Positions 11,811 to 14,635 of a DNA stretch of 64,000 bases are shown piece by piece. Origin of the DNA: Emticicia aquatica (lineage in GTDB: Bacteria > Bacteroidota > Bacteroidia > Cytophagales > Spirosomataceae). The position numbers and the translations under genes are program-made. Every line of letters starts with the position of its first letter. Within the stretch, counting starts at the first letter, position 1. Where the stretch lies: contig NZ_CAKLPY010000003.1 in the NCBI RefSeq assembly GCF_923079645.1, positions 1 to 64,000 on the forward strand, written 5' to 3'. The notes below the pieces were generated by a model. The model ran no database searches. It had not been told where the DNA came from and saw only the letters and a list, made by a program, of their open reading frames with translations.

Positions 11811-12374
11811 TTATTTCTCATTCAAACACTCAAAAACCATTCTATAAAAATCGGGGTGAGATTGCCATGTTTGTCCAGAAACATATTTTCCATCTCTCAC
11901 AGCTTCATTTTTACCTACAAAATTACCTCCACAGGCTTCTACCTCAAATCTTACATTTTCATAGCAAGTAACAGTTTTATTTTTAACCAAACCTGCGGCT
12001 GTCAGAATTTGTATGCCATGACAAATAGAGAAAATAAATTTATCGGTCTTGTCAAATTCTCTGACGATTTCTATGGCTTTTTCGTTGTGGCGTAAAAATT
12101 CGGGAGCTCTTCCGCCCAAAATCAAAACGGCAATGTAATCTTCGGTTTTTACATCAGCAAAAGCAATATTTGACTCAACAATATACCCTGGTTTTTCGAT
12201 ATAAGTATCCCAACCAGGTTCAAAATCATGAATAACCAAATTGAGTCTTTTTACGCTTGGTGCAGCAATAATTGCCTCATATCCAGCTTCTTCAAAGCGA
12301 TGTTTGCCATACAAACATTCGTAACCTTCACCAGCATCACCAGTGATAATCAATATTTTCTCTTTCTTTGACAT
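11811..12374 (-). CDS. DJ-1/PfpI family protein
   Basis: 187 residues from the ATG at 12374; the frame extends 48 bases further upstream but that part is not conserved. The nucleophile-elbow cysteine is Cys118 in SICHG, with the conserved Glu16 in GEGYE that activates it in this family. Members act as chaperones, glyoxalase or deglycase-like enzymes, or proteases; the exact activity cannot be read from the sequence. No signal peptide, so cytoplasmic. No obvious operon partner. Confidence 0.85.
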   Translation of the reverse strand: MSKKEKILIITGDAGEGYECLYGKHRFEEAGYEAIIAAPSVKRLNLVIHDFEPGWDTYIEKPGYIVESNIAFADVKTEDYIAVLILGGRAPEFLRHNEKAIEIVREFDKTDKFIFSICHGIQILTAAGLVKNKTVTCYENVRFEVEACGGNFVGKNEAVRDGKYVSGQTWQSHPDFYRMVFECLNEK

Positions 12375-12483: not shown

Positions 12484-12491
12484 TATATTTG
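12484..12491 (+). promoter_or_regulatory. -7 promoter box upstream of the multi-HTH gene
   Basis: TATATTTG fits TAnnTTTG 24 bases before the start codon. No clear -33 partner is visible. Confidence 0.4.
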
Positions 12492-12514: not shown

Positions 12515-13555
12515 ATGAGAAAAATAGCACCCATCGGTAAAAAAAATTTTGTGGGTAAGAAATTTAAAAAAGCAGGCCCAAATGAATTAAATGCTTCTGA
12601 TAAAAATTTTATTAGAAATAATATTAATCTGTTTAACATCCAACTATTAGCATTTAAAGTAGGAAAGCCAGTTGCTGCTGTTGAGAAATTCATAAAAAAA
12701 GAAAAATTAATTTCAACACTTGAGCTCCAAGAAGTCAAAGAATTAGTTGAACCAATCGTGCCAGTTGAAGTAATTTCAAGAAAACTCGATAGCACAGCGT
12801 CGTCGAAAGAGAAGAAAAAAAGTAGAAAAAGCGAAAAAGTATTGAGTAAAATAGATTTTATTCGAGAAAATTATCAGAAAAGTAGTGCCATTAAGATGGC
12901 AAAAGAGTTAAATGTTTCTATTACTGTGGTTAGGTATCACCTCAAAAAACTGAATCTAACACCTTTAAAAGTATCAAGAGCTCTTCCTGACGCCATATTA
13001 GAAAGGGAGAGTTTCATTGCAAAAAATCATAAAAAATATACGGTAAACGAACTTTCAGAAAAACTACATTGTAGCCGAGATGTTGTTAGAATTTCGCTAC
13101 GAAGATTAAAATTAACAGCACTTAGAGTAACCAAAGAGCAGGAAATACCTCCTCAAACGATTGATTTCATTAAAGTCAATTATCGGACAATGACCGCAAG
13201 AGAAATGAGCAATGCTTTAGACAATAAAGTTAGTTGGAAGCAGATAAAATACCTGTGTGAAAAACATGGTTTCTTGAAAACACCCGCAGAAATCACGGCT
13301 ATCAGAAATCGTTGGAATAGAAGCGAATTTACAGCAAGTGAAGAAAAATATATCACTGCTAATCATGGTAATATTTCTTTGTCAGAAATTGCAAAAAATA
13401 TTGAAAGAAATCGTTCAGCGGTTGTAAAATTCTTGGCAAGAAAAGGATTAAAAATAACAAAAGAGCAACACGATGCTCTCAATAGAAAGAATTTTGAGAA
13501 AGGGCGAATGATAATGAAAACAATACTAGAGACTAAAAATGCTTCTAAAAAATAG
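12515..13555 (+). CDS. Multi-helix-turn-helix repeat protein, unknown function
   Basis: 346 residues, very basic (rich in Lys/Arg). I see five related units of about 40 residues at roughly 29-67, 112-150, 165-203, 216-256 and 277-315. Each fits the pattern FI..N....(S/T)..E(I/M)(A/S)..L..S...V...L...(G/L)L, a three-helix homeodomain-like HTH. Residues 70-110 form a basic, Ser/Lys-rich linker and the tail is Lys-rich. There is no signal peptide, membrane segment or enzymatic motif, so the likely role is binding DNA, perhaps over a long site, as a nucleoid or regulatory protein. I do not recognise a named family. It stands alone with its own -7 box. Confidence 0.75.
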   Translation: MRKIAPIGKKNFVGKKFKKAGPNELNASDKNFIRNNINLFNIQLLAFKVGKPVAAVEKFIKKEKLISTLELQEVKELVEPIVPVEVISRKLDSTASSKEKKKSRKSEKVLSKIDFIRENYQKSSAIKMAKELNVSITVVRYHLKKLNLTPLKVSRALPDAILERESFIAKNHKKYTVNELSEKLHCSRDVVRISLRRLKLTALRVTKEQEIPPQTIDFIKVNYRTMTAREMSNALDNKVSWKQIKYLCEKHGFLKTPAEITAIRNRWNRSEFTASEEKYITANHGNISLSEIAKNIERNRSAVVKFLARKGLKITKEQHDALNRKNFEKGRMIMKTILETKNASKK

Positions 13556-13648
13556 TTTTTTGTAAAAATTAACCCAAATTCATCTGTTTTATCAAAATAT
13601 TTTGGAAATTGAAGTAAATTCAACCTTAACAAAATAAAAAATAAACAG

Positions 13649-14635
13649 ATGGAAATTATTGAGTTTTTGTATCAGGAGCTTATTGGCTTTTTGGGTTTAC
13701 GTGGTACTTTAGAAATCTTGAAATCAGGTGATTTTAGTGCATTTCTAACTTTTGATGGCATTATTACAGGTATTGGGCCAATCTTACCAATTTTGCTTGT
13801 ACTTGAGCTTATAAATGGACTAATTCTCAAAAATCCGCATGCAAAAGTGTATAAAATCACTTTTTTGATTTATATCCTAAATCGTTTTATTGGCCGTTTT
13901 ATTTCAATCGGAGCTATTTCATTTCTGATAGCTAATTTGCAAAAATACGCACCTTTTCAGACTACATTTACTTGGTATTGGCTTATTTATGGCTATATCG
14001 TTTGGGAGTTTTCGCATTTTGTATATCATTTTTTGGGGCATAAAGTACGTTTATTTTGGTGTTTGCACGCTACACATCACACCCCCGAAAATATGAATTT
14101 ATCGGTTTCTCACGCACATTTTTTCCTTGAAGGCCCTTATGCAGATATAATTAGAGGTTCAATTTGCATCATTTTTGGTATTCATCCAGCACTTTTATTT
14201 TTCATTATGTTTATTGATGGCACTTACGGAATGTTTATTCATGTAGGTGAGAATTTAATGAAAAACGGGAAAATGGGCTTTTTGAACCATCTCATTCTTA
14301 CACCTTCGCATCATCGAGTGCATCATGCCAAAAATCCATTGTATATGGATACCAATTTTTGTAATCTATTAAATATTTGGGATAAAGTTTTCGGTACTTA
14401 TCAACTCGAAAAAGATGAAGTAAAAATCGAATATGGCATAACCAGAACAATGGATTCGGGTAATATTTGGGATGTTTATTTTGGTGAGTTTATCGCTTTA
14501 TTTAAAGATATTTGGGCGGCTCCTACTTTGAAAGATAAAGTTTTGTACATTTTTATGCCACCTGGTTGGCATCATTCGGGCGACCACAAAACGGCTTCGG
14601 TTGTGAGAAACGAATATTTGAGGAGCAATAAATAA
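13649..14635 (+). CDS. Sterol desaturase / fatty acid hydroxylase superfamily membrane protein
   Basis: 328 residues with several hydrophobic segments in the first 120. The diiron histidine clusters are all present: HFVYHFLGH, HATHH and, later, HHRVHH. These enzymes hydroxylate or desaturate lipid chains at the membrane surface using two iron ions, O2 and an electron donor. Substrate options include fatty acids, carotenoids or sterol-like lipids; none can be chosen from the sequence. It is followed by a strong terminator and is probably transcribed alone. Confidence 0.88.
   Translation: MEIIEFLYQELIGFLGLRGTLEILKSGDFSAFLTFDGIITGIGPILPILLVLELINGLILKNPHAKVYKITFLIYILNRFIGRFISIGAISFLIANLQKYAPFQTTFTWYWLIYGYIVWEFSHFVYHFLGHKVRLFWCLHATHHTPENMNLSVSHAHFFLEGPYADIIRGSICIIFGIHPALLFFIMFIDGTYGMFIHVGENLMKNGKMGFLNHLILTPSHHRVHHAKNPLYMDTNFCNLLNIWDKVFGTYQLEKDEVKIEYGITRTMDSGNIWDVYFGEFIALFKDIWAAPTLKDKVLYIFMPPGWHHSGDHKTASVVRNEYLRSNK

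Follow-up and report, generated by a model that had tools for sequence, protein, structure and literature searches.

Results

A basic protein built from five HTH units

We found that the open reading frame at 12515-13555 (+) of the window (the whole 64,000-nucleotide stretch of DNA analyzed here) encodes a genuine protein of five helix-turn-helix (HTH) units. We read it, with somewhat better than even chances, as a chromosomal DNA-binding regulator without a recognizable sensor, which would set several of its HTH units along one long site. The frame opens with ATG and specifies 346 residues, and the product is strongly basic (pI 10.19; 76 Lys and Arg, 37 Asp and Glu). The G+C content of the gene is slightly low (0.320; five neighbours span 0.340-0.401 and the whole window stands at 0.353), which says little about its origin. 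Features of the locus are listed in Table 1.

Table 1. Features of the five-HTH locus. Positions are those of the window; identities are with the named relative.
Feature	Position	Strand	Basis and remarks
Upstream divergent neighbour	11811..12374	-	
TATATTTG promoter-like box	12484..12491	+	TATATTTG in 6/7 aligned species, TATATTTA in G010
Five-HTH protein gene, 346 aa	12515..13555	+	Intact relatives in G004, G005, G007, G035
HTH unit 1, residues 26-67	12590..12715	+	Unit HMM, leave-one-out, AlphaFold2 (helices 27-36, 42-49, 53-62); weakest unit
Charged linker, residues 68-108	12716..12838	+	Low-confidence model; 17/41 identical with G004
HTH unit 2, residues 109-150, mid-array	12839..12964	+	HMM, leave-one-out, AlphaFold2 (helices 112-119, 125-132, 136-145); top pair score with unit 3
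HTH unit 3, residues 161-202, mid-array	12995..13120	+	HMM, leave-one-out, AlphaFold2 (helices 159-171, 177-184, 188-198)
HTH unit 4, residues 212-254, best-conserved unit	13148..13276	+	32/42 identical with G004, 30/42 with G007; HMM, leave-one-out, AlphaFold2 (helices 213-222, 228-234, 241-250)
Extra helix, residues 257-269, between units 4 and 5	13283..13321	+	AlphaFold2; residues 255-272 14/18 identical with G004
HTH unit 5, residues 273-314	13331..13456	+	HMM, leave-one-out, AlphaFold2 (helices 274-283, 289-295, 300-309)
Basic C-terminal helix, residues 316-345	13460..13549	+	AlphaFold2; residues 315-346 21/32 identical with G004, likewise G007
Downstream neighbour	13649..14635	+	By the HTH gene or what remains of it in 7/7 genus genomes having one

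The units were delineated with an HMM trained on 20 of them (five from the window protein, five from G004, four from G007 and six from G035), and its recovery of five units of ~42 residues in the window protein is circular by construction. As a less circular test, we scored the units with HMMs from which one position at a time had been left out and compared the scores with 1000 shuffles of the protein. Held-out units 2, 3, 4 and 5 scored 24.1, 15.3, 14.7 and 12.1 bits, respectively, each reached by 0 of the 1000 shuffles; held-out unit 1 was weaker (3.0 bits, reached by 10 of 1000). Alignment of unit against unit (10 pairs, 500 shuffles each) was clear for five pairs, whose scores were reached by no shuffle (three pairs), one (one pair) or two (one pair), and marginal or not significant for the remaining five (19, 26, 87, 99 and 116 of 500). 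Pfam HTH_11 (PF08279) matched three stretches of the protein at 42.9 bits, above its gathering score of 25; it is the sole Pfam family above its cut-off, and the 17 more that fall below theirs are mostly HTH families. No other known domain rose above cut-off in the Pfam and NCBIfam scan, and no model in it covers the whole five-unit layout.

AlphaFold2, run on a four-row alignment (the window protein plus three segments from a single relative), predicted five separate three-helix domains with a mean pLDDT of 67.8 and a pLDDT of about 73-86 within the blocks; run without an alignment it gave a poor model (pLDDT 54). Residues 68-110 of the linker stay below 50, and the pTM of 0.28 from this shallow alignment leaves the mutual placement of the five domains undefined. 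In units 2 and 4 the third helix shares 9 of 11 residues with its G004 counterpart, and that of unit 3 is less kept (6/11 with G004, 2/11 with G007). The first-pass annotation had described five alignable HTH units in tandem within one basic protein. The units and the basic character are borne out by the unit HMM, the leave-one-out test, HTH_11, the predicted fold and the pI, but the array is less even than a plain tandem, as unit 1 stands apart behind a charged, low-confidence linker of ~41 residues and the extra helix splits units 4 and 5. The starts of units 2, 3 and 4 are spaced 52 and 51 residues apart in the unit HMM; a period of ~51-52 residues is also that of Myb repeats. At E up to 10, the Pfam matches of this protein include neither GcrA (PF07750) nor Myb (PF00249), and no HNH or homing-endonuclease domain. 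HicA_toxin, which is of RNase type, came at 0.11, below its cut-off, and a match to an HNH-named PHROG spans residues 102-198, which belong to the HTH part of the protein. PADLOC mad1 (1.7e-8) was set aside, its match being confined to residues 171-207.

Relatives differ in unit number

Of the 58 genomes close to that of the window, nine contain a match to the five-HTH protein. Among the 11 genomes of the genus, the gene is intact in G000, G004 and G005, with five units, and in G007, with four. It is broken in three of the 11 (G006, G009 and G010), where the lesions are stops and a frameshift, a deletion, or loss of all but a 34-residue remnant, and it was not found in another four (G001, G002, G003 and G008). 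These four are an outgroup by their M13 peptidase (80-83% identity, compared with 90-92%), and in the 6 kb downstream of that peptidase gene none of the genes of the HTH block was found in them. Downstream of the peptidase gene in G003 we noted a frame for a 1259-residue protein (L093:190-3969, -) with, by eye, leucine-rich repeats that closely resemble one another ahead of GTPase-like and TIR-like parts. With three copies broken and four not found in the genus, the HTH gene is therefore dispensable.

An intact relative with six units is present in G035, which belongs to another genus; near its gene lies one for a 727-residue protein with many similar short repeats by eye (L095:3890-6073). Across the family, 20 of 222 genomes match a five-row full-length profile at E<=0.001, namely seven genus members, G035 and a further twelve. 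The 13 loci in those twelve are partial matches in differently laid-out or unrelated proteins (sigma factor, hydrolase), and full-length relatives among the 222 genomes are limited to the genus and G035. The same profile matches 5 of 291 genomes in the order sample and 12 of 296 in the phylum sample. In a genome_contigs scan (at least 592 stretches), two loci were confirmed among the matches listed, both of them broken copies in Cytophagaceae MAGs. Two other kinds of HTH protein were noted along the way. The window's own genome has a 69-residue frame that is one stand-alone HTH unit (L036:1453-1662; contig C2, 650614-650820, -), most similar to the N-terminal end of the six-unit protein (42% over 67 residues), present in 1 of the 11 genus genomes and located 40 bases before a gene resembling thiamine pyrophosphokinase. 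Five loci in the family and order (L025, L028, L030, L031 and L040) have HTH repeats fused, by eye, to an HNH-like part.

A tree of 21 units places window units 1, 4 and 5 with, respectively, the first, penultimate and last units of the G004, G007 and G035 proteins. Units 2 and 3 form one set together with the lone middle unit of G007, which is nearest unit 3, and the three middle units of G035 lie outside that set. The tree (3 of 18 inner branches starred, 7 open, three G035 units on long branches) gives modest support to an array that is kept at both ends (units 1, 4 and 5) and changes in the middle, which holds one unit in G007, two here and three in G035. Selection can be read from the sole unsaturated pair, G004-G005, with a dN/dS of 0.100 at a dS of 0.67; most other pairs have dS >2, at which their dN/dS means little. 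This value indicates purifying selection on at least the G004 and G005 copies of a gene that is often lost in the genus.

Gene surroundings and search for an operator

The divergent gene upstream of the HTH gene is presumably PfpI/DJ-1-like, and the gene downstream we take to be of the fatty-acid hydroxylase/sterol desaturase type (hereafter the hydroxylase gene). By eye, the neighbours in 9-18 kb of the window are housekeeping genes. An intact hydroxylase ortholog adjoins the HTH gene, or what is left of it, in G000, G007, G009 and G010, and a single gene separates the two in G004 and G005. G006 has just a broken fragment of the ortholog, next to its broken HTH gene. In G035 the six-unit gene is followed by a gene for an NtrC-type regulator in place of the hydroxylase.

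This proximity in 7 of 7 genus genomes (two with one gene between), together with the breakage of both genes in G006, would fit a local regulator that acts on the adjacent hydroxylase gene alone. We regard such a restricted role as very unlikely, since the hydroxylase gene and the block preceding it are intact in G009 and G010 despite the broken HTH gene, and since G035 has the NtrC-type regulator gene at that place. The block in question (13560-13648 of the window) is conserved before the hydroxylase gene in six species and was considered as a five-HTH operator; its persistence in G009 and G010, where the HTH gene is broken, speaks against this. Upstream of the HTH gene, an alignment of seven species shares the promoter-like box alone and no longer conserved site. 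The box, TATATTTG in six of the seven species and TATATTTA in G010, where the HTH gene is broken, resembles what we take to be the Bacteroidota -7 promoter box. Footprinting upstream of the HTH gene and of the hydroxylase gene thus found no operator.

Comparison with known and uncharacterized strings of HTH domains

A profile of the HTH unit was searched against the PDB. Its top match, 8vd6 (2.7e-13), consists of five identical 33-residue repeats, was taken as designed and was given no weight; the code turns up in a protein-design paper (PMC12339374). The search also found 2lvs at 1.8e-8, titled 'NMR solution structure of a CRISPR repeat binding protein', and reached GcrA structures only at E=0.055; the five-row full-length profile reaches 2lvs only at 0.018. 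In a Foldseek comparison with the PDB nothing reached E<=0.001 (2lvs stood at 0.45), and VIA-align returned no Z >=8, its matches being mostly single HTH domains. Neither search therefore yielded a solved structure with the whole layout, though one may exist. Against BFVD there were 25 matches at E<=0.001, one of them named D5 protein, with low TM-scores (0.13-0.30 by query length).

According to PMC10883916, archaeal Cbp1 has three HTH domains that arose via duplication and Cbp2 has two, and deletion and binding data there place the HTH units of Cbp1 in order, 5'-3', along the CRISPR repeat. The window protein resembles them in its tandem HTH domains and in the match of its unit profile to 2lvs, and differs in having five units rather than three or two and in showing no link to Cas1. 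It scores 20.6 bits on the NCBIfam Cbp1 model (NF040595), well short of the cut-off of 140. Cas1 was present in 10 of 12 genomes surveyed. Among the five with an intact HTH gene it is full in G000, G004 and G005, a broken fragment in G007 and missing from G035 (66% complete); among the seven without an intact HTH gene it is present in six and absent from G010. Cas1 does not track the HTH gene, and we rejected a Cbp1-like role in CRISPR.

The second comparison is with phage T5 D5. The window protein matches PHROG 323 ('transcriptional regulator, D5-like') at 6.1e-14 in three stretches, the best of which pairs residues 210-319 with 96-197 of 319. Its relatives match as well (G004 6e-19, G007 6.6e-12, G035 1.9e-31), and none of four single-HTH controls (ArsR type, two sigma factors, MerR type) does so at 0.01. 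The profile is broad: at 1e-5 it matches in 18 of the 58 relatives, where some of the matching frames are 592-633 residues long, and in 5 of 14 control genomes (one being Sulfolobus acidocaldarius), so that a match says little about the role of the five-HTH protein. T5 D5 matches it at 1.2e-71 from end to end in a single stretch (1-253 with 3-270), whereas the window protein matches in three local stretches. In a direct comparison, hhalign aligns D5 20-236 with units 2-5, weakly (probability 35%, E=4e-4). The unit HMM finds four stretches in T5 D5, mostly weak (independent E of 1.8e-6, 4.8e-4, 0.0064 and 0.32), and D5 itself appears, on its sequence, to be a string of HTH units. Its GenBank note describes a DNA-binding protein required for replication and late transcription, a 2026 preprint describes an HTH motif in the predicted D5 structure (PMC13405049), and a passage of PMC8624392 merely names D5 among virion-associated proteins. 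'D5-like' refers to something different, a primase-helicase, in the relevant passage of PMC4981718, and in one use in PMC10853773 to a D5-like helicase. D5 is a phage gene among replication genes, unlike the chromosomal five-HTH gene. Given the local, repeated match and the weak direct comparison, we do not identify the window protein as D5.

Other multi-HTH proteins are present elsewhere in the phylum Bacteroidota. Proteins at L043-L046, L048, L051 and L054, from other classes, are arrays of ~50-residue HTH units with 5-8 unit-HMM matches each, and the two that were scanned, L043 and L044, match PHROG 323 at 2.1e-61 and 2.2e-54. They differ from the window protein in that their units begin with a WT/WS/WN-type motif and, for L043 (the one scanned with Pfam), in matching the GcrA, Myb and sigma-region-4 models; the best match of this type to the five-row profile is 1.3e-18. 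Such uncharacterized arrays of five to seven HTH units occur in 8 of 296 genomes at E<=1e-20, with two adjacent copies in G749. The same genome has a protein (L057:1-1629, -) with one HTH unit, a membrane-like segment and a long C-terminal part, by eye, which the 592-633-residue frames matching PHROG 323 in G048, G049, G054 and G055 may resemble. A 408-residue Pseudomonas putida plasmid protein (L058:3185-4411) has up to eight unit-HMM matches, some weak, and matches PHROG 323 at 1.9e-54.

These matches raise the alternative of a D5-like regulator derived from a phage or plasmid and stranded in the chromosome, where its remnant is being lost. It would agree with the PHROG 323 matches, with the multi-HTH proteins on plasmids, with the 95 phage records matched by the L043 protein (not by the window protein) and with a gene broken or not found in 7 of 11 genus genomes. 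A peptide-pattern search of viral_contigs, a weak method that needs short conserved peptides, gave 266 matching stretches and 0 confirmed relatives among them. With tblastn the window protein has one match in phages, at E=0.5, and matches seven plasmid records at E 5e-5 or worse; the six-unit G035 protein has no match in phages at 0.01. The viral_contigs result, the housekeeping neighbours, the dN/dS of 0.10 between two intact copies and the constant place by the hydroxylase gene in 7 of 7 genomes with the gene or a remnant all argue against a stranded remnant, which we hold to be quite unlikely.

Discussion

The preferred reading remains a chromosomal regulator with several HTH units along one long site. 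The protein would carry its five three-helix domains as beads: a long flexible arm bears unit 1, units 2-4 follow with a regular period of 51-52 residues, and unit 5 comes past the extra helix, with the basic C-terminal helix after it. Several recognition helices probably then lie side by side on a single long DNA site that is asymmetric, an arrangement like the one proposed for Cbp1 and its CRISPR repeat, and docking there could switch or insulate transcription at that site. That several of the units read DNA is plausible, and they may do so on a long site in the modular way put forward in the first-pass annotation. A stricter version, in which every unit recognizes a few bases of its own and duplication or loss of middle units changes the length of the site, as in TALE or zinc-finger arrays, seems decidedly doubtful.

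A sequence-neutral nucleoid (chromatin) protein, with basic HTH beads that cover AT-rich DNA or bridge stretches of it at low specificity, could likewise account for the pI of 10.19, the flexible arm and beads, and the lack of any other Pfam domain above cut-off. A dispensable gene, the failure to see an operator and the window G+C of 0.353 would suit such a protein too. A neutral coat, however, has no need of units that differ from one another and of which 1, 4 and 5 correspond across species (with modest tree support), and units 4 and 5 are identical with G004 at 32 and 29 of 42 residues. Of the 222 family genomes searched, moreover, only G035 and members of the genus yielded full-length relatives. 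We therefore consider a nucleoid protein unlikely.

Strings of HTH domains are already known from archaeal CRISPR-repeat binders and, apparently, from one phage regulator. The initial statement that no characterized family in Bacteroidota has the five-HTH layout is not supported if extended beyond that phylum, where Cbp1/Cbp2 and, apparently, D5-like regulators come close. A limited literature search turned up no description of a Bacteroidota multi-HTH family and no bacterial chromosomal HTH-array family whose members differ in unit number. The relatives with four, five and six units allow one to ask directly if an extra unit lengthens the DNA site.
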